Source: Chrysogorgia sp. JL179-B06
Lineage: Eukaryota > Cnidaria > Anthozoa > Scleralcyonacea > Chrysogorgiidae
Assembly (NCBI GenBank): GCA_035772405.1
Contig: JAYKKM010000439.1
Location: 6,368,501 to 6,432,500 of the forward strand
Direction of reading: 5' to 3'
DNA length: 64,000 nucleotides
Shown here in pieces: positions 11,330 to 55,936 of this stretch. Positions within the stretch are counted from its first letter, which is position 1; each line of letters starts with the position of its first letter. The position numbers and the translations under genes are program-made. Under the pieces are notes generated by a model. The model saw nothing but the letters and a program-made list of their open reading frames with translations, had not been told where the DNA came from and ran no database searches.

Positions 11330-11335
11330 TTTTTA

Positions 11336-13297: not shown

Positions 13298-13299
13298 TT

Positions 13300-14214: not shown

Positions 14215-14223
14215 AAAAAAAAA

Positions 14224-26410: not shown

Positions 26411-26693
26411 TGTAAGGGATTGTCACTTGGCTCTCAAACTGATCAAATTGCAATATGTATTGATTTGAATTGACTTCCCCTCCTGAACTATTAGTTATTA
26501 ACTAGCTCACAGCTTGACTCATTTTGCACCCGATTCGCACCTCATTACACGTATACTAAGAGGTTTTCATTGTATCTCATTACACGCATATAAGCGTCAA
26601 TAGAAGGTCTATTGTACCTGCTGACAGACTGTGATGTCATAGCTAACGCTCTGCCCAAGCTGCATTTGCATATTCTGCGTTTTACCCGCCATT
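26411..26693 (+). repeat. Left terminal inverted repeat of the KDZ element
   Basis: About 283 bp. The outermost ~75 bp match the right copy moderately (TGATTTGAATTGAC is shared). The inner part (26525-26693, from TGCACCCGATTCGCACC to TTTACCCGCCAT) is about 95% identical to the inverse of 55655-55830 by eye. It probably carries the promoter of the transposase gene. Confidence 0.9.
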
Positions 26694-27303
26694 TTGGGAT
26701 AAAAGGCTTTTTTCATCTTGATATTACTATATTAAAACAAGTTGTTTCTGTTCGGCAGTTACGTTGGGTTGTGTGTCGCAAATGTAAGTATTTTGTAATC
26801 TTGTAGTCCAGCTTATTATAAGTGTGATCTGTGGTTATATTGCCATGTTCATTAATAATTCGTGACCGCGAGTGGCACGAAAATATGTAAAAAATATATA
26901 TAATAAACAGACTATTGCAGCCTGCTACTGTACGAGGCTACACTACTCTTGCCTATAGGCTACAGCGAAACTTTTGAAAATACACGTTTAGTTTTATGGT
27001 TGGATATACAACCGATACAAAATAGCCACCTGAGGCTGAGTCACTGGCTCTCACAACAAGGTTTATAACAAGTTCAATTTGGACTCATTTTATATATGAA
27101 CTTTTATATTTCTCTTAGAGATTTTTAGTAATAAATTGTTTAGCATAACACCACAATATTACCTTTCAATTTCATCTACAAACCTGGTGTGACAGACTAA
27201 ACCCACTATATTAAAAGCTGGTAGGACATGGAATTATATTATTTATAATTGACATGTATATATAGCATTATTATAAATTATTTATTATATTTATACTGCT
27301 TAG

Positions 27304-30300
27304 GGTACGTAAAAAGGCTACAACGATTTCGTACAAGGTGATAGAATATAGAGGTGGTCGAGTTCACAGAAGATCTAGGCTTTCTGTACCTGTGCAAGTG
27401 ACACTGGCAAGGACTTCCTCTGGTTCTGTGCAAGGTCATAGCAGCCATGGAGATCTTAGAATCCAAGACCAAGAAGCAGATCATAGTGATAATGATGTAA
27501 ACACTGAGAGTCATTCAGAAGAACCCTGTGTTTCTTCAATTCCTCAGTTTGGAAAGCAGTCCCTCATTAAGAAACGTGTGAGGCAATATAGGCAAAGGAA
27601 AGAGGCTGAGATAAAAGCATGGAGTGACATCAGGGAACGAATGCTGGAGAAATATGTGGCAAGTGAGGCATTACCAAATGACAGTATCTGCTGCAATAAC
27701 CAATGCACAAGGAAAGCTGAGTGTAGATGTCGAGATTGTGGTGTACTAAAGTTAATGTGTGTCGAGTGCTGCCATGAAATACACAGAAATTCTCTGCATG
27801 CCCCAGAGATATGGAAGGTATTTTTTATTTGAATTAATTAAGTAAGGATCAAGGCACTTTATCATTCTATTCAGGCTAAACACCAGATGATTAACAAAAA
27901 TCCAATTTACCGATCTTGTAAATTTATTTATTTATTTATTTAATCTGATATATGGCCTTTTGTAGCCGATAATTATCAGCCCTTACTGATATTGCCTATC
28001 ACAGTATCAGTCACTTGTGATTCTTGGACGTAACTGTAGTGATAAATGTCAGGAAAATGTGCACAATTATTACATGAGTAATGTAAAGGCTTAAACATGC
28101 AGCAGCCTCATTGTGAAAAATGCCAAAGTGAAACGAGAACCTGTGAAATTTGTCTATCAAGTAAAATTCAACAGCCAGTTTCGGTAATGTTTGAATGTGT
28201 TAATGTATACATGCTGCTTTGAATGTGGGAGAGCTTGGAGTAGAACCAGTACATCATTGTAACCTTCGCTCTCCATCTGAGTCTCGGTGGCTCAATGGAT
28301 AGAGCATCACACAGGCAATCAGAAGGTATAATTACAGTATAATTATTATAATTAATTTTTCTAAGGATACAAGCTTGACGATCATCCATGTATCATCTGT
28401 CTACTCCAAGCTTTCCCACATTCACTACAGCAGTTTATATAAACACATCCAAACATTACAGATATAAGTGACTGCTGCATGATAGGCAGTACATATATCA
28501 ATTGAACCAGTACATCATTGTAACCTTCGGTCTCCATCTGAGTCTCGGTGGCTCAATGGTCAGAGCGTCTCACCGTCAATCAGAAGGTTACAGGCTCGAT
28601 TCCTGTCCGTGACTCATTTTTCTGAGGATACGAGCTTGACGATTGTCCATGTATCGTCAGCCAGATTCTATCTTAATTAAAATGTTAATGTTTTTGAAGC
28701 CTGCAACTTGCTATTTATGGGTAACCACCAATCAACTGAAAAGTTGCAGCTCATACTTGTTAGAAGCATTCAATCTCAATTAATACAAGCACATTGTACA
28801 TTATCCCACATTTACAATTTATATCTGTTTTTCTTATAAATTATGTAGGAATATGGATTTGAATTATATCATGTTGAGAGGGATATATGGGAAAAGAATA
28901 CTGAGATGAATGGTTATGTGGAAAATATTGTTGTTATAAATTCATCTGGTAAGAATTTCTCAATCTTTGGAGGTGTTGGAATATACTGTAATAAAAAATG
29001 AAACATCAAGACTTTCTGGTACTGAGCTATTATTTTTGTTTTATTTGAAGGTGTTCAGATAAAAATACCTGTAATGTTTTATCGTGATGAGGAACCTAGC
29101 CTAACTCTAATTGAATATGGAATGTGGCCTGCAACCCCCAAGGAACCTAAGGTGGCTTTTGACATGTCCTTGATGGAGTTAGCCGAAGTTCTCTTTGTGG
29201 AGTGCCGTTTGTCAACAAAACAATTTTGCAATGCTTTGAAATGGATGGTTCCAGACAGGGGCGTAGGAAGCAGGGGGGCCGGGGGGGCCGCGGCCCCCCC
29301 AATATTATAAAAGGGGGGGCCGGAATAGCTTTCGGCCCCCCCAAAAATGATTGAATTTGAAAGAAAAATTGCAGCAAAAAATTGAATTCGAAAGTAGAAG
29401 TATTTGAAATCGTATATTAATCGAATAGTATGAATGTATGATATTACCGACAAGTTCTAAAACAACATTTTCCTATAAATGTTCTGTTAAACTGTCATAG
29501 AAGTAATTAAAAAAAATAATCACAATATATTTGCATGTTAACCCGAGTGTTTTAACGCAGTCCTACTCTAGTAGGCTTTCTTTTTTAACTAAGCAGAAGA
29601 GCGGAAATCGCGGAATGATTGAGGCTAAAAGGTAGCCCCAGTTGGAAAAAAACGTCCATGTCGGACTCGCTGACCATTGCATTAATATGTTGTCAGTGGT
29701 TCCCAGGGGCGGCGTAGCTCAAAAATAGGGCCCGGGAAAACTATTCGATTGGGGGAGAGCAACTATTCACAGCGGGAGTGCAGGGACCATCACCAGATTT
29801 TTGGGGGCCATACGGGAAATCTCCCTGTGGTCCACGCCGCCCCTGGTGGTTCTTAGGCAAGCTGATGAGCTCTGATAAAGAGCGAAACAGTCCAAAATAT
29901 GAAATTTTATAAACTTCTGAACTGAAAAACTCAAAATGCAGGAAATGCAATTTGCGGGAATCTAGATTTCAAAATTTTTTTGGCCGGCCCCCCCAACTTT
30001 ACAAAGCTTCCTACGCCCCTGCTTCCAGATCTTAATCACTGCTATGTATGTACAGTACTGTACTTCTAAAAATTCATTATATGGTGATTCATGAGACAAT
30101 TGTTCAAAAAAGTTGTACTGAAAGATGTACATGTACATCACATGTTGACCCCTTTATACCTAATTGTTAAAGACCACTTTGTATTCATTGATATTCATAT
30201 AATTATGTAAATTACACATTCTGTACTGTACATGTACCTTTATGATAAAGCCAGGTGCCTTTTATATTGTAAACATCTATGTTGATCAATAATGACGTGC

Positions 30301-33300
30301 CTGCATGAAACACATTTTTATAAATGCAGTTACTATTTTGACATCCAAAAGTAAGGAACAAACCATTTTACAAAATTCTTCCAATTTTCCACCATGATTG
30401 AAATGTGAGGTATTATACAAAAATTACTAACCGAAACAGTACAATTACATGTGCATTTTTACTGGTTGTTACCTGTGATCTATTACATGACAGATAAGCA
30501 CATATGATGTTGCCTCATGTCAACAAATCACATGTACAGCTCTCTCTGTGTATTACTACTTTAGGTCTTTAGCCAATGACATATAGAAAAAGACGGCGAC
30601 TGGTACATTAAACCATAATTCCTTGCGCGTAGTAACCATTGAATCTCGTAGAAATAGCAGAGGATAGAGTTTGAAATAGATTAAGTTTGATAAAAAGGAA
30701 GCTTTTACGTATTTAGTTCATGTTTACAAGGTAAACAATGTTTAACTGTTATTACAGGTGATTTAAGGGCGCAAAGGATTCTGGTAAAATGTACAGCCTC
30801 CATCTTTTTCAGTACCGTCAATTGTATACTGTAGATCATGGATTGTGTTGGCTTGTGTGATGCATGCACATTTTGCCATCCCCTGAAAATTCAAAAAGAC
30901 AATTAATTATCAATAACATTTTTGAAGTGTTTTTTGTATTTGTTATTGTATTAAACAAATTGATTCCATTTTTTGTTGTCTGTTTAGGTATAAATACACA
31001 GAAAATATCACAACGTGGCAAGAACATCAGTGAACCACTCAGCGTGTGTGTGACTTTTGTTATTGCCAAGTTGTGATGTTACTGTATATGCATTTGTAAC
31101 TGAACAGACAACAAAAAATAGAATCTACAGCATATATTTGTTAAATTGTAACTTTTTTACATAGTACATACTAATGTAATATATATAAAATGGATATTTT
31201 ATTTAATATTTGTTAAATTATTTTTTAAATATATATGGTAAATACAGTATTGTATTTTATATAATTATGATTATAATTGTTCGTTTTCAATTTAGGTGAA
31301 GGACATTTACAAACTTCTTGTTGGTGAATGCTTTGCAGAGTTTCGATTCATGCGCCATCAGTTTCGAACTTTGAGGACTCTCAACCCAGATCTGAGTGAT
31401 GATGGTACAATCTGTCCTGCATGTCTAAAAGTGAGTAACTAAAGTTGATGACAATGTTACGCCTTAAGGCCACACCAATTTAATTGTTTGTGGCACGGAT
31501 CCGACCAATCCTATTTTTGTGAAACCAAAATAAAATAAAATTTGTGCCTAATTATTTACTTTGATCAAAAATTGGTTATTTTTGTGCTTTTTCAACCTTT
31601 GTACCCAGGCTTTTCACCGGCGAGTCCGGTGAGGCGAGCGAAAAGACTGGGTACGAGCTTGTACGTTTTTTTTATTATAATTTTTTCCCGACCGACCGAC
31701 CCTAAAAATTTTGAATGAGAAATTGGTGTGGCCTAACTGTATGTAAACGTAATTCAACTGCATTGTTAGTGCCCCGCAGTATAATTATGATTTAACCCTG
31801 GTACTCCTGAAGGTTTCCCCCATGTTAGCGACAAAAATAGTCTGGTGTTAGACAAAGTAAATACATGTATCTAATAAAAGGCAGGTTTAGGGGTGAAAGG
31901 GTTAATATCAAGATTAAATTGCACAGTCATGCAATTGAACCTAGAAGATGTAAGTACAGTAGAGTGCACATAATTATCTTAAATCTGCAAACAGTGTGTT
32001 TGCATTAAAAGTTGGTTTAAGTTTTTATTTGTTTTCTCTTATTAGGAAAACAGTACACAGCATATCTGTTGATGCTTTGTTTGGGTGTGTAAGAAAGAAG
32101 AGCTCTGGTGAAAGTTTTGCATCTCCTAATCATGCCGATACATTTTTCATACCACAGGATGTAGTCGACCAGTTTACTGGCTCATATGGGAAACAAAATA
32201 CAAGACTGGATAATGTACGTTTTGTATAGTATAATGTTAGCCATGGAGTTATTATTTGGTGGTCTTAGCCAGAGTATGTAAATTGTGTGCTCAAAACCTT
32301 TCAAAGACAGCCTTTAATACTTTTTGTGGCCAATGCCAGTCAGACTACAGTACTTATTCATGCAGTAGACTTGGGGAATGGGGTCAGTTGAGGCAGGCGT
32401 ATATGTACAGTAGGTAGGAATGGGATAAATATTCTGGGAAAATTCCTTGAGAAGATATTTATTGTGTTAATATACACGCTGCTGTAGTGAATGATATTTG
32501 TTATTGTTAAAATTGGGAACCCGTTTTCATCCTACTATTTGTAAGTGTTTACTGTAGAATTTATTCTAGCAAACACCTACCGGCCTGTACACTATGTTAT
32601 TGGCTAAAGACCCTATTTTGAAACAAAATGTGTCCATAGTGTGTCAGAATAAAAAGTGAACTACGATCTTTTGTCTAATGTTTGAGACAAAAAAGATAAA
32701 TTTATGCCATACACGTTTAGTATACAGTATACATACAAAAGAATAATTATAACATCATTTTGTTACACTTTAATTAGGATTGCAATCAGTTCCAGGCTGG
32801 GACCAATCTGCGTTCCAAAACAAAATCAGACAAACTTGATGAGACTGCTGTTTTTGGGTGTGCATGCCGTCATGAAGTGCCAAGAAAATTCTTTAGTCTA
32901 AAACGTGGAGAACAGTGAGTTTTAAGAAACAGTAAATTGTTTGTATCGCAATCATATCCTAATTATCAGCCATAGTCCAGTTGCAAAGTAGTAAATCTAG
33001 TACTGCACTTTTAGATATGAATTTTTATTTAGTATATTTATTATATGATATTCGACCATGTCATTAATGAGTATTTTGTAATATACTGTATCTGCTCCTT
33101 TAGGATATCAAATGCTGTGTTTTTACTGCAGTATTTAAAAGAAGCAAATACAGGGCGAGATATGCACATAAATTTCATGTATGACATAGCATGTACGTTG
33201 GAGTCACACTTAAAGGTTAGGTTTTTATTATTTGACTATTGCATTTATGACCTACTCAGGTACACATATTACCATATGTAGGTTTCCCTTTGACGCAAGT

Positions 33301-35686
33301 AAAATCTTTTGGCGTAGTAAAATGATAAAAGTGACGTTTTAGGTTGGTTCAGCTGTCATTGGGTTAATTTAACTTTGTAAATTTAGTATCTATTTTTTTG
33401 TTTAGAGAACTGGTCAAACAGATTTGTTGGAAGATGTTAGGCTGGCTATCCCAGCATTTCATGTGTATGGTCATAAGCTCAAATGTCAGGTTAAGTGCAT
33501 ATGAATACCTGGTTCTATGTTTTATAGCTGTTGTCTTATTTTAAGTGATTTCCATTCCCACCGAAATATTGAAAATCAGATTTCTCTTGAGATTGACATT
33601 GGGTGGTTATTAAGAAATACAAAACCTTTTCTTTTTCTTTTTCTTATTGTTGTTAAAGAGTCACTTGACATAGTAAATGTCTCAGTGCTTCTATCGAGTT
33701 ATATAAAGCATGCGGAAAGTTGGAAGAACATGTCATGAGAGAAGCTTCTAATTGCTTCGCAAATGTTGTTTCAACTGCCCAAAAAATAATCCGAGAAATT
33801 ATGAATCTCGAAAAATGATTTCTTCAAGATGTTTGTTGGCATTAAGTTGTTTTTCTTATTTTGTTTAAGTTATTTTGATGATGACAACCAACAACTAAAC
33901 AATTGAGTTTTTCTGCAAAATGAATGCCAAGCATGCTGTATTTTGTATAAAACATAAAATAAAATTTATACTACTGTACGCAAGCTCTGATTGGGAGAAT
34001 TGCGCACTTAATCGAAAATTAATTTTTCCGTGCGGGATACTGGATCCATGCACTTGGTATTTTGCTCAGATTTTCTCCCAACATCCTGCATGTTTGGAGA
34101 AATGAAATACCTAATGGTTTCCGTGTTTGGATGACCTGATCCAAACATGGGTATATTGACCATAGAAATAATAGATATAGAATGTGTTAATTTAAAATAC
34201 GAAATAAACTCGCCCCAGAGCACACGGACCGCTCCTTGGTAAATGCAGTATGTCAGATTACTATTACTTTTTTAATCGTATATTTGCTTTACTTTTTGTT
34301 TGTTTGTTTCTTTCTTTTTGGTGGTAGATATCCTATAGTCCGAGAAGATTGACTGGTTTTGGTTTGACAGATGGCGAGGTCATGGAGAGGTTATGGTCAT
34401 ATCTCCGTCCAACCGGCAAAATAACCAAAGAGATGACGGCAACCCATCGTATTGATGCCCTCACTGACTTTCTTTTGCACTATACCAGAAGATCGAGATA
34501 TCAAATTGGTATTTTACATTGTTTAAATTTTTACATGCACCGTAGATTATGTGTATCTAGATTTAAATCAACCCAAAATTCTAAATATACTGTACGACAT
34601 AATTTCTTTAATTTTAATACTAAATATATTTTAATTTGGCGAACTTATATTATCAACTTTAATATAAATATATAATAATTTAACACATTTCTAACTGAAA
34701 CAACTTTAATTATTTTATTCTAACTCAGGCTAACGCCAGACGGCCGAGATACAGTAGGTCTCGGAAGGAATGTGTAATATCACATTTTTGCATATTTCCT
34801 AGGTGATCTACTTTATCAACGCATGGAAAGGACGTTACAAGTACAGCGTTGTTCAAACGATGAGTGGGGAGTTTTGGTTTCTAAATTAGGAAAAGATGGT
34901 TAGTTAATGATATTCCCCATTTATACTTCTTCATATAGGCGAGTTGCACGATCGTGCGCACGCATTATTTTGGCAGGTCACATGCATTAGAACTACTAAC
35001 GTGATGGGGAAATGAAACGATTTCAACAATTTCTGAAGATACTAACTTTAAAAGTTATTTCTGTACATTTTGGAGTTAATTTCTATTGAAACACAGTTGA
35101 ATTCCTTTCAGTTTTTTGCCATGTTTTTATGCATGTAGCCCGCCAAAATAATGCGCGCGCATCATTGCGCAACTGGCTTATACTTTTCCCCAGCGGTACG
35201 TTATAACTGTACTGCGTATTCTGGAGAAAATTCAGCGGTTTTAAATCAATTTGCGTGTTTGAGTGTCAAACAGAACTAATATGCAACTGTGATACACCTA
35301 TACTAATAACTGTATGATATAGGCCCCTGGCACATGACGCAAAAACGGTAATTTTTGTCATTTAGCGTGAGAGATCGCACGGCGAAAATCTTGAAGAAGT
35401 CACCTTGTTTTTATGTCATTTTTGTGTCTCATTTTCCAAAAGAAATAGTTAATAGAAAAGTTTGTCCCATATATCGAGTTATCGGGGCATTTGAACACGC
35501 TTCTCTCGTGCGGTTCGCTCAACTTCCCGCGCGCCTATATTACTCGTTAGAGACATGGGACACGTTTTTACTTTTTAAAATATTACTCTTACTAATTATA
35601 TGACGTTGGTTATATAGCAATTGTTTTGCAAAATGAAGTTAAAGCCTGGGCGGATGCAGAGAAAATTGAATTCCTGAATGTGTCTC
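27304..35686 (+). CDS. KDZ-superfamily transposase (CxC2 + DDE), multi-exon
   Basis: Exons, by GT/AG borders and reading phase: 27304-27817, 28849-28948, 29051-30045 (split by a MITE at 29256-30021), 31296-31430, 32046-32214, 32778-32914, 33104-33215, 33406-33489, 34328-34508, 34803-34898 and 35618-35686, about 600 residues in all. Exon 1 has the CxC2 cysteine cluster (CCNNQC, CRCRDCG, CVECCHEIH). Later exons carry KDZ signatures: ICPACL, SVDALF (first Asp), CACRHEVP, MYDIAC (second Asp), AIPAFHVYGHK and GFGLTDGEVMERLWS (Glu). Phases agree at all joins except 31430/32046, where a small exon may be missed. The C-terminus is not found; a satellite starts 136 bp after the last exon. The exon-3 MITE would disable this copy. 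Confidence 0.9.
28243..28410 (+). repeat. tRNA-derived SINE, copy 1
   Basis: It begins GAACCAGTACATCATTGTAA and contains a box-A-like GGTGGCTCAATGG. The box B is degenerate here. It shares order and most bases with 28504-28670, and lies in transposase intron 1. Confidence 0.65.
28504..28670 (+). repeat. tRNA-derived SINE, copy 2
   Basis: Same head as copy 1, with a box A GGTGGCTCAATGG and a clear box B GGTTACAGGCTCGATTCC, followed by the shared tail ACGAGCTTGACGAT. The internal pol III promoter is intact; with a non-tRNA tail and a neighbouring copy it is a SINE, not a tRNA gene. Confidence 0.7.
29256..30021. mobile_element. hAT-type non-autonomous element inside transposase exon 3
   Basis: Terminal repeats CAGGGGCGTAGGAAGC and GCTTCCTACGCCCCTG. 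The 8-bp flanks GTTCCAGA (29248-29255) and CTTCCAGA (30022-30029) match at 7 of 8, the length expected for hAT. G/C-rich subterminal hairpins (GGGGGGCC). 766 bp without a coding frame. Removing it restores a continuous exon ending at a donor site at 30045. Confidence 0.9.
29704..29845. mobile_element. 142-bp hAT-type MITE nested in the 766-bp element
   Basis: Ends CAGGGGCGGCGT and ACGCCGCCCCTG, flanked by GTGGTTCC (29696-29703) and GTGGTTCT (29846-29853). It is a third layer: MITE in MITE in transposase exon. Confidence 0.85.
30046..31295. other. Transposase intron, no feature seen
   Basis: A/T-rich intron between exons 3 and 4. Short open frames near 30836-31076 on both strands have no recognisable content. 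Confidence 0.5.
31467..31734. mobile_element. MITE with terminal AGGCCACACCAATTT repeats
   Basis: Left end AGGCCACACCAATTT and right end AAATTGGTGTGGCCT are inverse copies over at least 15 bp. The interior has a G/C-rich hairpin (CACCGGCGAGTCCGGTGAGG) and CCGACCGACCGACC. 268 bp, non-coding, within a transposase intron. Confidence 0.75.
34942..35174. mobile_element. MITE with ~40-bp inverted ends
   Basis: AGTTGCACGATCGTGCGCAC at the left matches the inverse of GCGCGCATCATTGCGCAACT at the right, and the arms share GCATTATTTTGGC. 233 bp, non-coding, in the intron before the last transposase exon. Confidence 0.7.
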
Positions 35687-35821
35687 GTAAGTTTTGGTCA
35701 GCAACTCACAAGTACATGTATGTCCCTACAAAGTTGTTTAACAAAATGTTTTATTTCCTGGGTTTTTTTTATTTATCTCTGTCTTGCAAATTTTGTTCTT
35801 TCCTTCAGGGGAAAATCCAAC

Positions 35822-38010
35822 TTTAGCCGACTGAAGTAACATATTCAAATTTCAGTCCAATCCGATTAATCTAACTTATATGTGCGAATGTGTTCATTTT
35901 TACAATAACCCCTGTATAGCTGTATAATTATAGTCTGACAACACCAAAACAGGATCTCTTGGGTAACTTACTTAATTGCATTCAATATTTTCGTATGAAA
36001 TTTTGCACATAACTATATTTAGCCGACTGAAGTAACATATTCAAATTTCAGTCCAATCCGATTAATCTAACTTATATGTGCGAATGTGTTCATTTTTACA
36101 ATAACCCCTGTATAGCAGCTGTATATAGTCTGACAACACCAAAACAGGATCTCTTGGGTAACTTACTTGCATTCAATATTTTCGTATAAAATTTTGCACA
36201 TAACTATATTTAGCCGACTGAAGTAACATATTCAAATTTCAGTCCAATCCGATTAATCTAACTTATATGTGCGAATGTGTTCATTTTTACAATAACCCCT
36301 GTATAGCAGCTGTATATAGTCTGACAACACCAAAACAGGATCTCTTGGGTAACTTACTTGCATTCAATATTTTCGTATAAAATTTTGCACATAACTATAT
36401 TTAGCCGACTGAAGTAACATATTCAAATTTCAGTCCAATCCGATTAATCTAACTTATATGTGCGAATGTGTTCATTTTTACAATAACCCCTGTATAGCAG
36501 CTGTATAATATAGTCTGACAACACCAAAACAGGATCTCTTGGGTAACTTACTTGCATTCAATATTTTCGTATAAAATTTTGCACATAACTATATTTAGCC
36601 GACTGAAGTAACATATTCAAATTTCAGTCCAATCCGATTAATCTAACTTATATGTGCGAATGTGTTCATTTTTACAATAACCCCTGTATAGCAGCTGTAT
36701 ATAGTCTGACAACACCAAAACAGGATCTCTTGGGTAACTTACTTGCATTCAATATTTTCGTATAAAATTTTGCACATAACTATATTTAGCCGACTGAAGT
36801 AACATATTCAAATTTCAGTCCAATCCGATTAATCTAACTTATATGTGCGAATGTGTTCATTTTTACAATAACCCCTGTGTAGCTGTATATAGTCTGACAA
36901 CACCAAAACAGCTCTCTTGGGTAACTTACTTGCATTCAATATTTTCGTATAAAAGTTTGCACATAACTATATTTAGCCGACTGAAGTAACATATTCAAAT
37001 TTCAATCCAATCCGATTAATCTAACTTATATGTGCGAATGTGTTCATTTTTACAATAACCCCTGTATAGCTGTATATAGTCTGACAACACCAAAACAGCT
37101 CTCTTGGGTAACTTAATTGCATTCAATATTTTCGTATGAAATTTTGCACATAACTATATTTAGCCGAATGAAGTAAGATATTCAAATTTCAGTCCAATCC
37201 GATTAATCTAACTTATATGTGCGAATGTGTTCATTTTTACAATAACCCTGTGTAGCTGTATATAGTCTGACAACACCAAAACAGCTCTCTTGCGTAACTT
37301 ACTTGCATTCAATATTTTCGTACAAAATTTTGCACATAACTATATTTAGCCGACTGAAGTAACATATTCAAATTTCAGTCCAATCCGATTAATCTAACTT
37401 ATATGTGCGAATGTGTTCATTTTTACAATAACCTCTGTATAGCTGTATATAGTCTGACAACACCAAAACAGCTCTCTTGAGTAACTTACTTGCATTCAAT
37501 ATTTTCGTACAAAATTTTGCACATAACTATATTTAGCCGACTGAAGTAACATATTGAAATTTCAGTCCAATCCGATTAATCTAACTTATATGTGCGAATG
37601 TGTTCATTTTTACAATAACCCCTGTATAGCTGTATATAGTCTGACAACACCAAAACAGCTCTCTTGGGTAACTTACTTGCATTCAATATTTTCGTACAAA
37701 ATTTTGCACATAACTATATTTAGCCGACTGAAGTAACATATTCAAATTTCAGTCCAACCCGATTAATCTAACTTATATGTGCGAATGTGTTCATTTTTAC
37801 AATAACCCCTGTATAGCTGCATATAATTATAGTCTGACAACACCAAAACAGCTCTCTTGCGTAACTTACTTGCATTCAATATTTTCGTATGAAATTTTGC
37901 ATATAACTATATTTAGCCAACTGAAGTAACGTATTCAAATTTCATTCCAATCCGATTAATCTAACTTATATGTGCGAATGTGTTCATTTTTACAATAACC
38001 CAAAAAATAT
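35822..38010. repeat. Satellite array, 186-196-bp unit (~11.5 copies)
   Basis: Units start with TTTAGCCGACTGAAGTAACA at 35822, 36018, 36209, 36400, 36594, 36785, 36972, 37159, 37345, 37532, 37719 and 37912; the last is partial. The left copies (191-196 bp) carry GATCTCTTGGG; the right copies (mostly 187 bp) have a short deletion there (AGCTCTCTTGGG). The array begins 136 bp after the last recognised transposase exon and may have displaced or separated the 3' exons. Confidence 0.97.
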
Positions 38011-39723: not shown

Positions 39724-42700
39724 TTATTCAGGAGGTGAAGTAAGCTTAGAAATTGGCCATGCATAATATCCTCCTATTTCTACAGGTTCATCATCATCAA
39801 ACGGTCCTGGAATTGGTGTTTTCATGCGATAGTTATCCGCCAAAGTGTCGACTTCAATAACTAGGGAGTTTCTCGGAAGTTGGCGACCATGTACAGTGTT
39901 GCGCGCTGTAACTTTCCCCGACCCTCTGACAATGTTGGTTTCATCCATTAGTCCAAAGCGAGTACCTGCAACAATAGCGAATAAGTAGGTTTACTTCATC
40001 ACATAAGTTTACTTTGTCATATCTAGCGAAGAATTGAGTAGGTTTTTCATTACAAAGGTTTATTTTGTCACATCTGTATAAATTGTTCGTTTTTTGATAA
40101 AAGCATGAAACTTGGCAGAGTTACTAAGCTCCATGAGATAAACAATTTCTGTACCGCGGGCCACGCAAAATGCACTAATGGTATCGAGTACTGCGAATGT
40201 CATCGATAACGACGTCATCTATAGAATAATATAAATATTGGAAATTCAACAATTTGACAATACCTTCTTATATTACTGAAAAATCGCTGATCATATTTTT
40301 GAAAAAAATGCTGAGTCAGCTTTTCATTGTTTGTATCTATAAATCGTTTTAAAATGGTATAAACTGTTTGTTTTTATGCCAATAAAGTTCCTGTTGAGAG
40401 GCTATATCCCTAAGAAAAATAATTAATATGTTTCCATCATATGTTTCCATCTTCATTAATATGTTTCCATCATCATAAAGAAATAATAAAAAAAGTTTTA
40501 GTTCATTGGAAATATATTAAGCCCTTCTTTTGGGGATATTCTCTCAACAGGAGCTTAATTGGCACAAAACAAATCAGTCACCATTAACTATGTATAAACA
40601 GTGCAAAAAATTATAACTCAGCAGTTTTTCAAAACTTTAATATACTATAGATGACGTAAAGGTCTGTTTAAGCGGATCCAACAAGTTGGGCCAACAGCTG
40701 GGCAACATCATCCAATAATGTCGGATGCAACATGTTGGACCCGTTTGAACACTATGTTGGATAATATTGCATGATGTGGGACGAAGTATAATCAGGTTTG
40801 ATACGGTTCAAATTTTTATCCTCCAACATTAAACGAGTTCATTGTTGTTGTTTCCGTGGAGATATAAGTCATTTGAGCTGTCCCGATCCATAGACGCGAT
40901 CCTTTGAAGTTTGAGATAAAGGTAGTTAAAAAGTAGAGTATCAAACCTTCTTTTAACTGCAAGAATAGTGTGTTTTGGGATGGCGAACATCCAGGTTGGA
41001 CAGGCAATGGCAAGAGAATCGACGCCTGAGAACTCGTGTTTTCCGATGCCACTTTCGGATGGCTTATACATGACGTTGACACAGTTTTGCTCTGCGCTGA
41101 CGCTGTTGGTAATGACGCCAAGGCAGCTACAGTCGTTAGTGTGGCAGATTGTGTCGAAGAAGACCGTTGAGTTAAGGTCGTTAATGGTGATTGATTGTTA
41201 TTTTCAATCGCAGATGTAGTGCAAGTAGCAAGTGGCTGTGTAGAAGTGGCTAAAAAACTGGTACGAGGTGGAGTGTTTGGATTGCAGGGTGAAGCCTCCG
41301 ACGTAGTAGAAATGGGTGGGCTCGGCCGTAGCAATGCTGTTTTTGACGCACTGTTAGTAATAAATGTTGATGTTTGTGGAAGATTTGAAGGGCATGAAGA
41401 TTCCAAAGCCGCCTGCGTGGTAGTATTGGATGTAGTTGAACTTTGCACGGACGTACTACAGGATGACTCCAGGCAGGGTGGATTGAATACAAAAGAAAAT
41501 TCGTCCTGGCACTCCCACAGCTTCCGTCTTTGCGCTTCACCGTAGAAACTAGGTTTCTTCGGATTGGATCCAACAATATCAAGGACGTATGATGGTAAAC
41601 CAACAAATGTTAGTCCAATGTCTTTCACCCTTGAATACGGTAGACTTGCTGGTTTGCCGATCAACATACCTAGTAGTAAATGTAATTAGCCTCCTACAAT
41701 AATTCGTGCAGAGCTGTACAAATCATTACTCAATTACAATTACTTCCACCAAAGCAGTGCATCCCCACAGGAGTTGAACCTGTGCTCGTATTCAAAAACG
41801 AGATCTACTGAGATGTCTTGTTCTGCATGGTGGTAACAAAACAATACTAAAAATTAACGAGTAGATTATCAGTATTATGACCAAACTAAAATATTAACAA
41901 AATAGTAAACTTGCGTATAAAACGACCAACGACCGAAGTATCCACCATCAGAGTTCATCAGGAACCTTTCCTGAAAATACGTGCTTAAGCAATGCCCATT
42001 TCTTGTCTATTAATCCCAAGCTCGTTAATCAAACACTTTTCACATTAAACGATATTCACTAGTCTTAGTATTAAATGATTGGCTATCGCCTGATCTAAAA
42101 CTAACGCCAGGGAGATTACGATGGAAACAAGGGTGCATGTAATCTATACTTACTCTCCTCGGTCCATATAAAATAATTCTTACAAAATACATCACATTAT
42201 ACATACCATACTTTTCGTTAAAAATATCCTGTATCATTTTCTGAGATATTTCCTTCTTCTCATGACGAAAAGAAGCTAAATAATTACAGAAATGTTAAAG
42301 ATTTTTATAAAAGCAGAGAATCTACATTCAAGCAATTTGTTTATGATACCTTCAGGTTTTAATAATTACATGCAAAGTAATTAAATTAATTTCTAACAGA
42401 AAATCCATCAACAGATGACTGAGATGAGTAAGAATGTGATAAAAAGAAAAAAGTGGTGTCATACCATCTTTAACATTGCTTGAAAATTGAGCGAAAACAT
42501 CAGGATTGTGATCCAGAAAATATTTGGCCAATTTTGTTGCTCCATGGTAGAGTAGTCCATTGTTTATACAAATAACTAAACATTCAGTACCCTTGAAGTT
42601 GTCAAGTTCTGAAACCTTAGAAAAGAAAAAACCGAATAGTTCGATCAGTGTACAGTTTTATATACAATAATACAGATAGATTTATATAGCGCCTTTTGCA

Positions 42701-45700
42701 AGCTTCAAAAGCTCTGTTTACATGAATGTATATACAATTAAATTAATAACTAATAAACTATTAGATAAAATAAGTTCAACTACATGTATAGAAGGCTTGA
42801 TTAAAAAGAAATGTCTTAAGTTGTTTTTTAAAAATGATAGTCGTTTCACTGTTTTTAATCTTCAATGGAAGCAAAGCTCAGGAGCAGCTACCTGGAATAC
42901 ACGAAATCCAAAAGACTTAAGCTTATACTTCGATTTTTCTAACAAATACTTATTGCAAGATCTAAGATTGCGTGAGGGATTATAACGTTCGATAAGTTCT
43001 TTAATATATGCTGGAGCGCGATTGTGAAGTGCATTGTAAGTTATCAGAAGAATTTTAAATTGAATACGCTGTTCAACAGGGAGCCAGTGGAGTTCCAAAA
43101 AAATCGGTGTAATGTGGTCATATCTAGAAGCTCCAGATACTAATCGAGCGGCAGCATTCTGGACACGCTGGAGTTTATGAATAAGTTTCTTTGGAAGACC
43201 ATACATGAGAGAATTGCAGTAGTCCAACTTGGAAGTAATAAGAGCATGTACCAATAGCCTTGCCGATTCAGGTGTAAGAAACCTTCTAATTCTTGCAATA
43301 CTACAAAGATGGAAAAAGGCTGATTTGCAAACAGATAGTACTTGAGGAGCCATAGAAAAGTTTTCATCAAATAGAACACCAATATGCTACAGGGACAATC
43401 TCACCATCAATAAGCATTGACTGCAAGGATGGTCTTGTTCGAAAGGGTGACGATATGATAACAAGCTCTGTCTTTTCACCATTTCGTTTCAACATATTAC
43501 AGATCAACCATTTATCCATATCATCAACACATGCCAGTAACTGTGCCTCACCGATCACCAGATCAGTAGGAGAATTAGTCTTAAAAGTTACATATAGTTG
43601 GCTATCATCAGCGTAGAAGTGAAAGTGCAATTTATGTCTACGTGCAATATCCGCAAGAGGTGCAGTATACAATGAATACAGTAGAGGACCCAATACAGAC
43701 CCCTGTGGAAGGGTCTTACTACATCCCGGGCGTTCTTTGTCAGCGCCCGCGAGCACTCGTCTTCTGGACGATCCTTTTATTAGTATTAAGGAAACCCAAC
43801 CCCAACACAACAAAAGATCCTAACCCTAACCCCCCGCCTAACGGGTTAGGGTTAGTAAACTAATTAGGCGGGGGGTTAGGGTTAGAAAACCCGTTAGGCG
43901 GGGGGTTAGGGTTAGGATCTTTTGTTGTGTTGGGGTTGGGTTTCCTTAATACTAATAAAAGGATCGTCCAGAAGACGAGTGCTCGCGGGCGCTGACAAAG
44001 AACGCCCGGGATGCAGTAAGACCCCCTGTGGAACTCCAAATTCAAGTGTACGCTTTTCAGAACACATTCCATTTACTCTAACAAACTGCGTCCGATCACT
44101 TAAGTAGGACTCAAACCAGCATAGCGCTTTACCACGTATGCCGAATCTACTCGAAAGTCTGGCAAGGAGAAGTTTATGGTCAACAGTGTCAAAGGCGGAT
44201 GAAAAATCAAGCAGCAAAAGGATGACAGAGTTGTTGTTGTCAACAGCCATAGCAACATCATTGTGAACACGTAAAAGGGCAGTTTCAGTGCTGTGCAACT
44301 TCTTATACGCAGACTGGAACAATTCATTAAGATCGTTCATTTCCAAATGCTCAACGAACTGTATCGCAACCACCTTTTCCACCAATTTAGACAAAAAGCG
44401 CAGATTGGAAATAGGTCTAAAACTTTTAAATTCATCAATATTAAGGGTAAGCTTTTTTAAAAGTGGTATAAGAACAGCCTCCTTTAACTGGTATTTAATA
44501 GTATAAAATGTACTAATATTAATATCATTTATAAAAAAACATTTCAAAATCAAATAAAACACAGCAATCACTAGAAAGAATCGGTATTGCAAATACCGAA
44601 TTCCGATATATCGCTGGTATCTACCTCATTTTCTAAAAAAATACACTACTTGTTAGGGCATTGCATTTCCACGCATTATGGATGAGAAATGCGTACTTTT
44701 CATGTTAATTTGTGCTAGCATTTCAATTTGTGTGTTTATGCATGGAAATGATCCCCAGAAGTGAAAGGGCTCATTATTCATAATCCAATATTAATGTGTT
44801 AAATACACGATACACTGACACACGTATCAGGCTGCGCGCGACTGACCCGCTACTGAAGTTAACGTAACCTCAGAACGAACAGTTGCTGTTGAAACTGTCG
44901 AATGAAAAAGTTGGAAACTAACTCTTTGGCATCTTATGAGGGAAACTTGTGGCTGTTGTATGATAGCGACGGAAAATTTGCGCGAAACTAGGCCCAATTG
45001 CTCAAATAAAAACAATAACAAAACAAAAGATGACCGACAAAAAATCGTCTGTGACCGGTAAATTTAAATATTTACCGGTCATGATGACCGGTTATACTTT
45101 CAAGAATTATTTCGAAGCCTGCTATAAAGTCTTTAAATTACATGAAATAATTGTTGTCAATCCTTTCCACTAATTCTCACTGTACATGCACATTTTTACG
45201 AGTTTAAAAGCCCTGTATTTTCAGGATTTTAATAAATTTTCATTTAGAGAATTCAACGCAGTGGTTAATTACCTCTTTCATCATGTTGGTGATAATCTTA
45301 TTGCATCTCTGTGGGTCACTTAAACTTGGCGGAGAACTTGAATTCAGGTGTGTTGCTCTTGTATTGTATGTTAGCTTTTCTTCAACTGAAAGCTGGTTCC
45401 ATAACTGCCCAAGTCGAGGAAATTTCTGTTTTTTGTTTGTGGAATCATCACCTGTAGTTTCACAAATAATACAAGATATTAGGTAATAAGTGCGAAAATC
45501 ATTGTTTAACCTATTTAATAAAAGGTCCGTCAAAATCACCAAGGCAACAAACCATTGTTATCCTGGTCGCCACACGAGAAAGACCCTTCTTAACAAAGGT
45601 TTAAATTAGGCAATATTTTATATGAATGTGCAGGCTGGAAAATATAAGTTCTGTAAATGTTCCAAAATGTACAAACTGAGTTATATTAAATTTAATATTG

Positions 45701-48700
45701 TCAAACAATTCCATTACTGAATAACACTCAGGCCTAGACTGGCCATTGTGTTACTTTGTGTCCGCACAAACTGATAATACTCAAAAGTTTTCATCACTAA
45801 AAATCGACCCTATAACAGTTAGTTTAATCGGAATGAAATGCCCCCCGGCTAACATAATAAATATTTGATGATTAAATACCTTGAAGTTGCTCCTTAACAA
45901 ATACATTGTAACCACTTCTTTTTCTGATTAAAACAGAATTGCCAGTACATTTTCTTGGTTGCCCAGGAATATGCTTACTGGCTTTGTAATTGCTTATCCA
46001 ATTCTAAAAAAAATCAATTATGGATATAATTATATGCATTTATGCAATAAATAAAATTAACTTCATGCATAATATTAGTGTCGTGTCAATTATTGGGGGG
46101 TTAGGAGCAAGGGTTGACCCAGGGCTCTATCTTCATTGGCTGACCTATGTGACGTCAACTCGTATGTTTTGCCACTCCTTGGTCTTTGGACCTTGGACTG
46201 ATTTTGGGCGCGTCACTTACTGCTGAACGTACTCAAGTCAACATCGTGTATTTTTTCAAAATCGTGTAGAAACGTCTTCGCTAACAAAGTTATAGTTTGG
46301 TTTCCCAAATCTCAAGTCGCCGTCGCTGTTGGCCCACAGTACATCGACGCCGTTGAGTGCTCCATCGCAACGGTCATCCCCCTTTTTGCCAACATTTCAC
46401 GGGTCGTGGCTTCACTCGAGCGAGGGTTCGTTCTCAGACGAGTATGGTCGGCCTTTGTCTTCGTCGTTGCCGTCAGCCTACATTCCGTCGGTGAGATGGT
46501 AGTTGCCAGGTGTCGTGCCACCCAGTGCAATGGCGTCAGGACCTGTCTGTCGTTCCTTCGCTGTATTTAGCTCGGGATTTCAATCGGGCATAACAGCGCC
46601 CGTTGGAGCGTCTGTGGTTTTTGCCGCCTTTCTTATCGCCGCAGCTTGCCGAGCTAGGAAATCCAACAGGTACCTTTTTAACGTTCATTCGGGGCCGAAT
46701 TCGGCGTCAGTGGGTTTGTATTCTAGGGCGAACCCAATGTTACAACAGTCTTTTATCATTGGCCCCGGTTTCCACCCTATATACTGTACCTTATAGTCTT
46801 GCAGCGGCGATTTCGGGCGGCCAATTTGTTGAATTGTCAGCATTGTTGCCCGGCCGCACGAAGAATGCTCGGTTGTGTTATAATAAAATAATAATAATAA
46901 TAATGATAATCGACGGCTGATCGATATTCTATAACAATGGGTTCAGTTGTTTACCATATACGGCATGCCCTCTTGATGGCTTTTACACCCAATCGCGCTC
47001 GTGATTTGCTAGCATACCAATAGCGTAGAGTCTGGCTGCTATTAATAGCTCAAAGCGGACAAACAAACCAAATTTGACTCACAAATGATTGCAATGAGCT
47101 ATTTCTTTTGTTATGGCCGCAAGAATTATGGGTAAAAGCGGACAAACATCGGTGCTGACGTCATCTCGACGGGCGCTATTGCGGATTCTCTGTATGTTCG
47201 CGCAATTCGGGGGTTCCGCGTGGTATAATTGACGAAGCATTTCGCCGTGATGCCGCTGCTCGTCCGATTTGTCATTGGTCACATATGAACGTGGAATTGT
47301 ATTTGTTCCACATTGCCGCATCGTCACCACGCGCCCCGACCCCACTGGGGAGAGTATCGCCTACCCGCGTTCAGAACCTTCCAGTACGCCTTCGTCGTGG
47401 TATATTTGTCGGTCATGGAAAAGCCATTTAAGCGGTTGCTCAAAATGCGGACAGGCAAGCCGGATTTGACTCTCAAATTATTGCAACTGTGTTTGTAGGT
47501 GGGGGGAGGGGTCGTATCTTCCTAATTTCCGTTGGGCATGTAGGATCGGTTCGCTCACGGTCGTTTGAGACCTTTCCCGTTGTTTGTTGTTTTTTTTTTC
47601 TTCGGCCCTTTATTTCAGCGTCGTTTACAGTAAATTTAGTAACGTTACCTTTGACCACTGTTTCTCCGTTGGCCGTCGATATGTTTTCTCGGGAACTTGC
47701 CTCTGTCCTTACGCCTTCAAAGAGCTGGTGTTGGCGGGGCTGTCGCACGGTTTTCGTCTTGGTTTTTCAGCTCCTGCGAACACATTGCGGTCTAGGCCAC
47801 GTAACTTAAAGTCAGCTATCGACCATCTCACGTCGTAGATGCTTCTCTAATCAGGAGGCCTTGCCGGTCAATGCACAGCTAAGCTTCCTTTGCCCAACCC
47901 CACGTGAGTCCTTTGGGGCCGCCTAGTGTCCCAGTGTTTCGCCGCAGGGTTTAGCACCATCCACGCGTCGTGTATGCGGTTGGTCAGCGGGGTTTTCTCC
48001 AATTTTGCGCCCAGTTTCGGGTTCTACCTTTCCCGACATCGGAATGGAGCTTGATGCTATTCGTGACATACCCGTCCGAGGTTCGTCGTTTGTCGCCGGC
48101 GTCGATTGTCACCTATTTGGCTGCGGTTCGGTCTTCGCACATCGATCAGTTGTTCCCGGATCCGATAGTTGGCACTGTTCGTTTGTCTCATCTCGCTCGT
48201 GGGGTTCGCCGCGCTCGGTCCGCGCCGCGCCTCGTTCGGTTACCAATCGTCTATTTTGGGCCTCATTCACGTGTCGCTATCGCCGGCGGTTTTTGACCAC
48301 ACCATATTCTAGTCAGCATGCTGCGTGGCGTTGTTTTTTCCGGTTTTCTGCGGGTCAGGGAATTCGCCGCCTTTGATCTGTCGTCTAATTGGTTTATCGC
48401 GGATGTGTGTATGGAGTCGTCGGGGACAATTCGTCTTCACATTAAGTCATCTATAACGGACCAGTTTCATCAGGGTTGTTTTATCCATCTTGGCCGCTCT
48501 GGCCAGGCTATTTGCCCCATCGAGGCACTATCTAGTTATCTGGCCGTTCGGGAATTGATGCCAGGGCTGTTGTTCATCTGTTAGAATGGCGCACCGCCGT
48601 CCCCCGTCATCGTCAATTCATGACTTCGATCGTCGCATTTTGGCCGCCGCGAGCATCCCTGGTAACTACTCCAGTCACAGTTTCCATATCGGAGCGCGGG

Positions 48701-54700: not shown

Positions 54701-55570
54701 ACAGGTGAGTAAAGTGAATGCAGGTGTTAACTTTAAGTTACGCGTGACAGGATTTTACCATTTTACCGGCCTTATATAACCCGGACAATGAACAAGGCCC
54801 AGTCAAATAAATTACTATACCAAATAACATATTTTACCCTAATTATAACCCTAATTTTGCACTGGATTTTCTATCCAAAACAAACTGCTTCGCAGGCTAA
54901 AACTAACTAATATATGTATCACAATACACCTGTTACTACGTTGTACAAGTGTGCCTGAATTACCACGATCTACAGCATATTTAATAGTCCTGAGTCAACT
55001 AACTATCAACAATTGAAAATGTATGGCATTTGCATTAATTCGACCACCATAAATTTGGGAAATTATATGTGCATTATGTGCCACTGTCCGTGTACTGTAT
55101 ATAAATTTAATTACCTATTATTACAAACTATAGTCACTGGGAAAACTAGGGTGTACATGCCATTATTATATGGTGATGGCGTCATTTTACCTAATCACTA
55201 TTTTAAAAATGGCATGCAGCTTAATTACACAGCAGAAACACTAAACCTCGAGCAATCATGGATAATCAATAATATATGCAAGAAAATGTTTATTTAAATA
55301 TTGTGGACGTGAACTGCAAAAAGTCATAACGCATAGGACAGAACCTTCGTTAGTTTTCTGTCGATTTATACCATGAACGCTCTGTTTGTACGATAATTTT
55401 ACAACGAATGTACAACGTACCTTGACCTGTGTTTCAGATAAACGGACTGCCATAGCACATTCCGCGTGTAATTCACATAGTTCCTTTTTGGTCGAAACCA
55501 TGCCTTCTTCGTAAAATTCGACGAGAATTTTTTTCTGGGCATCCGATATGGACAATCGCTCTGATTCCAT
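39724..55570 (-). CDS. Homeodomain-like + HMG-box-like accessory protein, multi-exon
   Basis: Exons, read leftward: 55570-55421, 46003-45880, 45451-45273, 42615-42465, 42275-42207, 41669 to about 40829, and 39965-39724. GT/AG borders and phases agree from exon 1 through exon 6. Exon 1 plus the start of exon 2 forms a homeodomain-like unit: an early helix (SDAQKKILVEFYEEGM) and a recognition helix split as LSETQVK and NWISNYK. Exons 2-3 hold an HMG-box-like part (SGYNVFVKEQLQ, FPRLGQLWNQLSVEEKLTYN). Exons 4-6 add a conserved region (ICINNGLLYHGATK, DIGLTFVGLPSYVLDIVG). A Ser/Thr/Pro-rich linker follows. The last exon has IPGPFDDDEPVEIGGYYAWP. The linker changes frame between about 41190 and 41070 (intron or frameshift) and the final junction is unresolved. 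A DNA-binding partner of the transposase is inferred. Confidence 0.72.
42650..44592 (-). mobile_element. CR1/L2-like LINE, 5'-truncated
   Basis: Reverse transcriptase of the CR1/L2 group on the minus strand. From 44592 it shows FKSFRPISNLRFLSKLVEKV, LLDFSSAFDTVDH and FGVPQG. After the MITE come GSVLGPLLYSLY and FYADDSQLY (catalytic YADD). The C-terminal end (HWLPVEQRIQFKIL) closes at 42862. The 3' end carries GGCGCTATATAAAT, typical of L2/CR1 3' tails. The endonuclease domain is missing, so it is 5'-truncated, as expected for incomplete target-primed insertions. A frameshift lies near 43370. It sits in the intron between accessory-gene exons 3 and 4, in the same orientation. Confidence 0.9.
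43711..44024. mobile_element. MULE-like palindromic MITE inside the LINE RT
   Basis: A 314-bp near-perfect inverted repeat beginning GGGTCTTACTACATCCCGGG and ending with the inverse, flanked by an exact 9-bp duplication CCTGTGGAA (43702-43710 and 44025-44033). Nine bases is the Mutator-type target duplication. It interrupts the RT between the GVPQG motif and its continuation. The centre holds TTAGGGTTAGG on each arm around GGCGGGG. Confidence 0.93.
44593..45272. other. Intron sequence, short palindrome only
   Basis: No exon is visible. A perfect short palindrome GACCGGTAAATTT/AAATTTACCGGTC-type arm pair lies at about 45053-45080, with a further GACCGGT at 45086. Confidence 0.45.
46034..49257 (+). 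mobile_element. Tyrosine-recombinase element, unit 1 (A1-YR-B1)
   Basis: Terminal block A1 (46034-46249) is repeated as A2 at 49259-49473 (one 1-nt difference noticed), and block B1 (48962-49257) as B2 at 52027-52322. Unit 1 runs A1 to B1 and includes a decayed tyrosine recombinase near its right end. Non-inverted A and B ends with exact B1|A2 abutment fit either split direct repeats of DIRS/Ngaro/PAT retroelements or two Crypton-like elements in tandem. No reverse transcriptase is visible in the 1.7 kb before the recombinase. Confidence 0.75.
47958..48823 (+). pseudogene. Degraded DIRS/Crypton-type tyrosine recombinase
   Basis: The pieces lie in order but in three frames. The N-terminal SAM-like domain has STRRVYAVGQRGFLQFC and LSPASIVTYLAAVRSSHI. 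Next comes VVFSGFLRVREFAAFDL, with the first catalytic Arg environment. A segment SSHSFHIGA corresponds to the H-x-x-R box but has His where Arg is expected. LGRWSSVAYLRYIWTP carries the nucleophile Tyr region. Such enzymes integrate DIRS-like retroelements or Cryptons by Tyr-mediated strand exchange. Two or more frameshifts and the Arg-to-His change mean this copy is dead. Confidence 0.8.
49626..50945. repeat. Minisatellite, ~85-95-bp unit
   Basis: About 14 units with GTCTGTATTGTTACACATCA, TTTGCTGTTATACGTCAGTT, a variable GCCGCCGCCACCACCACG triplet stretch and ATATTATTCTAACTCGTATG. The CCGCCG/CCACCA length varies between units. Stop-free frames through it are repeat artefacts. Confidence 0.93.
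50946..51560. repeat. Second, decaying repeat set (~200 bp period)
   Basis: Units built on GAACGGTTGGTATTTAG, CATCGCCGTGA, GCTTATAACTTTAA and TGCTCCCTGGATTACCGCCA are clear at about 50966-51072 and 51179-51285. Two further degenerate copies (about 51370-51470 and 51480-51560) keep TACC(A/G)CCAGG. Confidence 0.75.
52783..52857. repeat. (AAAC)n microsatellite
   Basis: About 75 bp of AAAC repeats with one slip near 52818. Confidence 0.97.
53067..53268. repeat. CTATAGG-rich cluster
   Basis: About 200 bp containing roughly 15-20 copies of CTATAGG/CCTATAG or close variants (GCCTATAGGCA, CACCTATAGGCC), spaced irregularly. ATGTTCCAATTTCCTATA occurs twice. The core is self-complementary, so the region can fold in many ways. 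Confidence 0.85.
54013..54117. repeat. Inverted repeat with TACATGTA ends
   Basis: The left arm has ACATGTACAGACTG then GAGCCATCCCT; the right arm has AGGGATGGCTC, then CAGTCTAGC and TACATGTA. The ~105-bp hairpin is probably a short MITE. Confidence 0.6.
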
Positions 55571-55654
55571 GACTTTAACTGCTTGAATATATGTGAATAT
55601 ATACAAAAACCTGCTCGCTTTCGACGTGATTACCACTTTATACCACAAATTGAA

Positions 55655-55932
55655 TATGGCGGGTAAAACGCAGAATATGCATATTATGCGGCTTGGGCAG
55701 AGCCTAAGCTATGACATCACAGTCTGTCAGCAGGTACAGTAGACCTTCTATTGACGCTTATATGCGTGTAATGAGATACAATGAAAACCTGTTAGTATAC
55801 GTGTAATGAGGTGCGAATCGGGTGCATTTTGGGACACCTCCCTGGAAATACTGCGATACCCTTTTCTCTGATTGGTCAATTCAAATCAATACTGCAATCT
55901 GATTGGTTAAGAGCTAGTGCCAATCCCTTACA
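55655..55932 (-). repeat. Right terminal inverted repeat of the KDZ element
   Basis: About 278 bp, inverse of 26411-26693. It starts 84 bp upstream of the accessory gene's ATG at 55570, so it likely carries that promoter. Confidence 0.9.
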
Positions 55933-55933
55933 C

Positions 55934-55936
<3 letters not shown>

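Follow-up and report, generated by a model that had tools for sequence, protein, structure and literature searches.

Harbinger transposons encode a Myb-like second DNA-binding protein beside their transposase, and proteins of the vertebrate TFII-I family (GTF2I, GTF2IRD1 and GTF2IRD2) carry several repeats and an N-terminal domain. The present study concerns a two-gene KDZ transposon of the cnidarian Chrysogorgia sp. JL179-B06, found in a window of 64,000 nucleotides (contig JAYKKM010000439.1 of assembly GCA_035772405.1, i.e., C439:6368501-6432500 in a genome of 781 Mb and 522 contigs). In this element, a KDZ transposase gene and a second gene, hereafter gene 2, face each other between one pair of terminal inverted repeats (TIRs). 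As in Harbinger, a second protein of probable DNA-binding type is encoded, while the transposase and the DNA-binding fold are, we presume, unrelated. With the TFII-I family, gene 2 shares one GTF2I-type repeat; it differs in having a single repeat, preceded by a homeodomain and an HMG box. The TFII-I N-terminal region, with an approximate query sequence, gave no significant match to gene 2 (equalled by 17 of 300 shuffles).

Among KDZ elements, Kyakuja of the animal CxC2-KDZ clade shares with the window element the KDZ domain, the CxC1/CxC2 clusters and a multi-exon gene, and fungal Kyakuja also share the 7-bp target-site duplication (TSD) and the 5'-CA..TG-3' termini, as reported in PMC12730594. 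However, the Kyakuja families of that paper are without TIRs, whereas the window element has TIRs of ~170 bp, and the second gene here is of another kind: neither 'hmg' nor 'homeodomain' appears as a word in PMC12730594. Zisupton and Dileera belong to the same KDZ superfamily and have TIRs, but their reported TSDs are of 8 bp (PMC12730594), whereas 7 bp fits best here; for nematode relatives of Zisupton, TIRs and no TSDs are reported (PMC9297572). Fungal TET-carrying KDZ elements likewise mobilise a second gene together with the KDZ transposase, which, according to PMC12730594, is a methylcytosine dioxygenase rather than a DNA-binding protein of this type. The layout is the same as in RAGL transposons, in which convergent genes are arranged as TSD-TIR-transposase gene-partner gene-TIR-TSD (PMC7204232). 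However, both the transposase (RAG1L core vs. KDZ core) and the partner are unrelated, and the TSDs are of 5 bp in RAGL vs. 7 bp here; by this comparison RAGL resembles the window element in arrangement without being related to it. Judged by its transposase, the window element is a KDZ element. In the literature, no KDZ element accompanied by a partner of this type was recognised by title and abstract, which does not establish that none is in print.

The two-gene KDZ element is real, and its ends had previously been misplaced. An earlier note, made from the letters of the window, had reported inverted ends of ~280 bp at 26411 and 55932. Inverted ends do exist, but they are ~170 bp long and start at 26527 and 55824; the outer ~115 bp of each formerly reported repeat is one half of an older palindromic miniature inverted-repeat transposable element (MITE), as seen in an empty-site copy. 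This MITE family (CATGTGTAAGGG...) is multi-copy: the left outer 116 bp has near-full-length matches, and the long arm is matched, at no fewer than 33 other genome places, a lower bound from the best 40 of 302 candidates scored. The empty site, L008 (C439:6346392-6349507), contains an uninterrupted 225-bp palindromic element on the same contig, ~47 kb from the KDZ element. Because both flanks are common to L008 and the window (left, 617 columns at 94%; right, 137 columns at 99%), L008 is a duplicated insertion site without the element. The best alignment to L008 was obtained by joining the left flank to the right flank minus 7 bp (score 445 vs. 437 for 8 bp), and TSDs of 4-6 or 8-10 bp fitted the empty site more poorly. 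This empty site, together with CATTTTG on both sides, sets the borders at 26527-55824, and the homology of a second, largely colinear copy, C202:337821-366481, to the window begins and ends exactly there. The terminal dinucleotides are CA..TG. The split MITE rules out 26411/55932 as element ends, and also TIRs reaching 26407/55936 without a TSD.

Copies of the element were gathered by a DNA search with the gene-2 end (22 matches; 21 of 21 candidates scored) and a protein search of the genome with gene 2 (52 matches; 80 of 83 candidates scored), and both proteins and the TIRs were mapped on each of 20 extracted stretches. Six inverted, inward-facing pairs of ends lie on single contigs among the 22 end matches, spanning 29,298 bp in C439 (the window), 28,661 in C202, 19,218 in C518:3595k, 25,555 in C266, 105,491 in C221 and 133,190 in C275. 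Both genes are present in all six pairs, convergent (tail to tail), the transposase beginning on the side of one end and gene 2 exon 1 on that of the opposite one; for C275 the outer 10 kb at each end were covered, and for C221 four 10-kb parts. The convergence described for the window in the earlier note thus recurs in every matched pair, and the other matched end pairs, of the kind it had suggested looking for, also enclose both genes, one of them (C518:3595k) with exon 1 as the only part of gene 2 found. Duplications of 7 bp flank five of the six pairs: three are exact (C439 CATTTTG; C202 TCTTGAC; C221 GAGAGAG, in a GA run) and two, C266 and C275, match at 6/7. The distance from the end to the gene 2 ATG is 254 bp in C439 and C202, 235 bp in C518, ~757 bp in C275, 2604 bp in C266 and 12,489 bp in C221; owing to the last two, a short distance is not universal.

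No intact TIR pair with the transposase only, combined with gene 2 as an unlinked host gene, was found among the six pairs from the gene-2-end search, no transposase-led genome-wide survey having been made. Unpaired ends or remnants occur at C250, C181 (several), C57, C64, C229, C469 and C69. The C250 remnant keeps the left end and part of the transposase, with homology stopping at window position 34424 (15 kb read); being truncated, it is not a TIR pair lacking gene 2. C69 retains the transposase N-terminus (3 kb examined). At C181, a window-like transposase starts at 933820 (+) and pieces of gene 2 lie at 948625-950260 (-), with TIRs unpaired and the locus uncounted. The transposase mapping left out C236, C348, C209, C137, C297, C404, C181:893k and 916k, and C275:5663k beyond the stated stretches.

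Two further observations concern these copies. A more distant convergent pair, also uncounted, is located at C181:916135-932840, with a gene 2 relative (32-38%) at 916135-918320 (+) and a KDZ transposase at 925254-932840 (-). The paired TIRs of C221:393120-498610 and C275:3337462-3470651 are separated by 105 and 133 kb, which would be a very long span for a DNA transposon; their TSDs match at 7/7 and 6/7, and their interiors were read in part.

The transposase exons were called from the reading frame, GT-AG sites and relatives. The earlier note was right to place a KDZ transposase just inside the left end: the protein matches Pfam KDZ (PF18758) with an E value of 2.1e-42 (145.7 bits vs. a cutoff of 26.6), as well as Pfam CxC2 and CxC1, and its putative start codon, which appears to be split by an intron (AT|G), lies 255 bp inside the end; the exon 5/6 junction is likewise putative. 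The KDZ columns YDI.C, P.FH.YGH and ERLW are invariant across 11 aligned sequences, and we take them to be the conserved acidic/metal-site motifs of the KDZ core, a catalytic assignment that we assume. Database matches to the transposase numbered 75 (4810 candidates scored), two of them fungal-named, six without an organism name and the rest animal-named; among ten of these chosen for alignment, the closest were from Pocillopora (52%) and Montipora (50%). C202 has C-terminal exons at 355783-357434 for which no counterpart was found in the window copy. With these exons not found and with an insertion in exon 4, the window copy is defective as judged from its sequence, and no full transposase would be possible from it. 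The transposase exons matched in C202 are free of stops; two of the matches do include stops, but beyond the called exon borders.

Gene 2 consists of seven predicted minus-strand exons encoding 545 amino acids without a stop, as anticipated in the earlier note, which had seen its exons join in phase. A homeodomain (residues 4-61), an HMG box (77-126) and a GTF2I-type repeat (213-289) are followed by an unnamed conserved C-terminal domain. The homeodomain was recognised by both sequence and fold, including W48 and N51 in what we take to be homeodomain numbering, the HMG box by profile evidence and the GTF2I-type repeat by profile-profile evidence. In Pfam searches at E <= 1 with four gene 2 members, the homeodomain was matched in 4/4 (best 1.9e-4), the HMG box in 3/4 (3.8e-4) and GTF2I in 3/4 (0.019), so that the homeobox and HMG searches proposed earlier do match both domains, though under the Pfam gathering scores; the GTF2I matches (E 0.02-0.25) are also under the gathering score. 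An HMG profile reached the TFAM box at 4e-7 (two sequences) and 2e-6 (four sequences). Comparison with GTF2I repeats from solved structures gave E values of 1.3e-6 and 3.3e-8 by profile-profile alignment (hhalign), a score reached by 0/200 shuffles, and only 0.01-0.04 by sequence-profile search. In a structure model with a mean pLDDT of 41, residues 1-66 align to homeodomains and 75-135 to SOX boxes.

The sole protein relative of gene 2, found in searches scoring 8000 and 581 candidates, is from the octocoral Dendronephthya gigantea and matches residues 1-285 at 55%. A tblastn search with it recovered gene 2 exons 1, 2, 3, 4 and 6, with exon 1 beside the right end at 76%. All seven exons were recovered in C202, and exon 7 was also matched at C181 (two places), C266, C221, C518, C348, C137, C297 and C404; these matches in C202 and many further places confirm it as an exon. 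Within intron 1 of gene 2, the window carries a 6.3-kb insertion (46034-52304) that is absent from C202, shares 17 bp at both junctions, and holds repeated end segments and GC-rich tandem arrays.

The two genes appear to have been inherited together. Identity matrices of the transposase and of gene 2 exon 1 give the same three groups, C439+C202, C221+C518 and C266+C275, a coarse test of lineage concordance because exon 1 has only 50 residues. C221 and C518 share 458/545 transposase residues and 46/50 exon-1 residues, C266 and C275 share 136/169 and 45/46, and between groups 28-38 of 46-50 exon-1 residues are identical. The ratios of nonsynonymous to synonymous substitution rates (dN/dS; Nei-Gojobori, window as reference) were 0.23 for gene 2 in C221 (366 codons), 0.17 in C266 (454), 0.15 in C275 (46) and 0.09 in C518 (50), and 0.17, 0.13, 0.18 and 0.23 for the transposase in C221, C266, C275 and C518, respectively; these ratios are lowered because only matched stretches were used and stops were dropped, and those between lineages are imprecise because dS is 1.1-1.9, near saturation. 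The C57 fragment (43 codons) was saturated. By these estimates, gene 2 is under constraint comparable to that on the transposase. It belongs to the KDZ element in three lineages of one genome and is almost certainly a native component of it.

The 14-bp sequence TSATTACACGYATA is present four times in the window, twice at each end and nowhere else, with 0 occurrences in 100 shuffles. All 12 ends of the six pairs have it at position 16, unaltered in 10 and with a single mismatch in 2; a further copy, at position 49-52, is perfect in 8 of the 12 ends, carries two mismatches in 2 and is absent from 2. On the opposite strand, the ATTA within the motif reads TAAT, which we assume to be the core of many homeodomain sites. 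Near the inner TIR edges of the window element lie an ATAAAA and a TATAAA box, the first 400 bp having two and three TATA-like matches, these boxes included; the start codons are set in from the ends by 255 (putative split codon) and 254 bp.

These observations can be put together as follows. The element is a large KDZ DNA transposon with two native genes, presumably driven inward from its two TIRs. One gives the KDZ transposase, and the other a probable DNA-binding protein of the element's own, in which a homeodomain, an HMG box and a GTF2I-type repeat are combined. The gene 2 protein would bind the motif just inside each end, bend the DNA and aid the transposase, by contact, in recognising or pairing the ends, and it may also regulate the TIR promoters; the assistance given to RAG1 by RAG2 and HMG proteins serves as the model for this proposed role. 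We consider a role at the ends together with the transposase somewhat probable, given that the domains are of DNA-binding type, that TSATTACACGYATA lies close to the termini, that the gene starts shortly inside the TIR and that it is inherited jointly with the transposase. Binding to TSATTACACGYATA, contact with the transposase and promoter control are what we infer from sequence features. The earlier note had proposed a dedicated DNA-binding partner or regulator of the transposase: that gene 2 is dedicated is supported by co-inheritance and dN/dS, and its being a partner or regulator is suggested by its domains and the end motif.

Several observations weigh against a native gene 2 that acts at the ends. 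The ATTA core reads ATCA in the first motif copy at both C275 ends, and one C266 end and one C275 end lack the second copy; TSATTACACGYATA is therefore not invariant, which lowers confidence in the end-acting role. The single-sequence Pfam scores of the homeodomain, HMG box and GTF2I repeat fall below the gathering cutoffs where shown, and the structure model is poor. At C518:3595k, gene 2 is reduced to exon 1 in the matches and no TSD matches, one end reading CG. Pieces of gene 2 occur without a transposase in the stretch read at C149 (10 kb), C350 (10 kb) and C518:952k (7 kb), and C57 has a TIR and one gene 2 exon with no transposase within 20 kb. Besides the near-saturated dS, in the close pair C202 the dN/dS of gene 2 is 0.57 and that of the transposase 0.63 (dS 0.03 and 0.08); with a transposase ratio of 0.47 at C250, this suggests that recent change is less constrained. 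Finally, the nearest transposases, from Pocillopora and Montipora, come with no gene 2 relative, the sole match being that of Dendronephthya, so that many KDZ transposases may work without gene 2.

Gene 2 could instead be the element's own transcription factor, activating or repressing both genes at the TIR promoters with no part in strand transfer. Its domains are of transcription-factor type, TSATTACACGYATA lies upstream of both genes, TATA-like boxes stand near both inner TIR edges, and the start-codon distances in the window are nearly equal. However, TSATTACACGYATA is found 16-65 bp from the termini, where end-binding proteins act, away from the TATA-like box, and gene 2 exon 1 is 2.6 kb (C266) and 12.5 kb (C221) from the end. 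We regard a purely transcriptional role as unlikely, though a serious candidate; it is compatible with end binding, the two not being exclusive. A different possibility is that gene 2 is stable cargo acting on the host, e.g., against silencing, and is kept by selection on the element with no contact to the ends. Its dN/dS well under 1 would agree with this, as would the TET/JBP genes that fungal KDZ elements carry (PMC12730594), for which an anti-silencing role has been suggested. However, a three-domain, probably DNA-binding protein that starts just inside its own TIR (window, C202 and C518) and the convergent layout in 6/6 matched pairs make cargo quite improbable.

Gene 2 might also be a host gene that lies by chance inside, or was once captured by, an unrelated repeat pair. 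The Dendronephthya relative is one listed protein, on a contig that differs in length from those of the five listed Dendronephthya KDZ proteins, which speaks for this view and against ours. It is contradicted by six TIR pairs with both genes in three lineages, five of them with TSDs, and by the empty site, and we find it scarcely credible. An end-binding partner is the reading that we favour. The positions of the features are collected in Table 1.

Table 1. Position, strand and support of the features of the two-gene KDZ element and its insertion site in the window.
Feature	Position	Strand	Support or remark
Two-gene KDZ transposon, 29,298 bp, termini 5'-CACCCG...CGGGTG-3'	26527..55824		Empty site L008, 7-bp TSD, C202 homology limits
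TSD CATTTTG, left	26520..26526	+	Empty-site comparison
TSD CATTTTG, right	55825..55831	+	Empty-site comparison
Transposase-side TIR, ~170 bp	26527..26695	+	TIR comparison among copies
Gene-2-side TIR, ~170 bp	55653..55824	-	TIR comparison among copies
Left half of older palindromic MITE split by the element; outside the element	26407..26526	+	Genome matches, empty site
Right half of older palindromic MITE split by the element; outside the element	55825..55936	-	Genome matches, empty site
Subterminal motif TSATTACACGYATA, two copies (26542-26555, 26577-26590), starts 35 bp apart	26542..26590	+	
Subterminal motif TSATTACACGYATA, two copies (55761-55774, 55796-55809)	55761..55809	-	
Transposase start codon, first two bases (AT), putatively split by intron 1; 255 bp inside end	26782..26783	+	
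Transposase exon 2	27304..27817	+	
Transposase exon 3	28849..28948	+	
Transposase exon 4, interrupted at 29256-30021	29051..30045	+	Insert absent from C202
hAT-like MITE, 766 bp, interrupting exon 4; inverted ends of 16 bp, flanked by GTTCCAGA/CTTCCAGA	29256..30021		Absent from C202
Transposase exon 5, 3' boundary putative	31296..31434	+	
Transposase exon 6, 5' boundary putative	32054..32214	+	
Transposase exon 7, KDZ core	32778..32914	+	
Transposase exon 8, YDIAC motif	33104..33215	+	
Transposase exon 9, AIPAFHVYGHK	33406..33489	+	
Transposase exon 10, TDGEVMERLWS	34328..34508	+	
Transposase exon 11	34803..34898	+	Matched in C202
Transposase exon 12	35618..35686	+	Matched in C202
Last transposase stretch, enters minisatellite	35809..35834	+	C-terminal exons of C202 absent beyond
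Minisatellite array, unit ~187 bp	35822..38001		Also in C202, longer there
Gene 2 exon 7, encodes the conserved C-terminal domain, which has no Pfam match	39724..39965	-	Matched at 35-92% in other copies
Gene 2 exon 6, remainder of GTF2I-type repeat and Ser/Thr-rich linker	40947..41669	-	
Gene 2 exon 5, first part of GTF2I-type repeat	42207..42275	-	
Gene 2 exon 4	42465..42615	-	
Gene 2 exon 3, remainder of HMG box	45273..45451	-	
Gene 2 exon 2, homeodomain end and HMG box start	45880..46003	-	
Gene 2 exon 1, bulk of homeodomain; ATG 254 bp from end	55421..55570	-	

Other sequences in the window were also noted. A palindrome at 43711-44018, with 137-bp arms (99%) and a TTAGGG-like core, lies inside a LINE-like reverse transcriptase; in the C202 copy, the flanking LINE parts are present and the palindrome is absent. 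Judged by their translations only, open reading frames at 4891-14223 resemble those of Polinton/Maverick elements (polB-, packaging ATPase-, protease-, capsid- and integrase-like), and an adjoining 1232-aa open frame at 15987-19685 (-) resembles an LTR retrotransposon polyprotein. A long tandem array with units of 100-128 bp occupies 314-4582.

That the second gene belongs to the KDZ element opens end-finding by KDZ transposases to experiment, since both the protein and the 14-bp site are defined. It also provides an independent case of the RAG-like layout, in which transposase and partner gene face each other between inverted repeats, and it places a TFII-I type repeat, beside a homeodomain and an HMG box, in cnidarian mobile DNA. 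More tentatively, and with doubt prevailing, an animal KDZ lineage may move by means of a two-protein machine of RAG1L/RAG2L design, with no relationship to that system, in which the transposase would be joined by a gene 2 protein that recognises the subterminal site and shapes the paired-end complex. Given the TFII-I type repeat in this mobile gene, the vertebrate TFII-I family might also share its origin with transposon-borne proteins.

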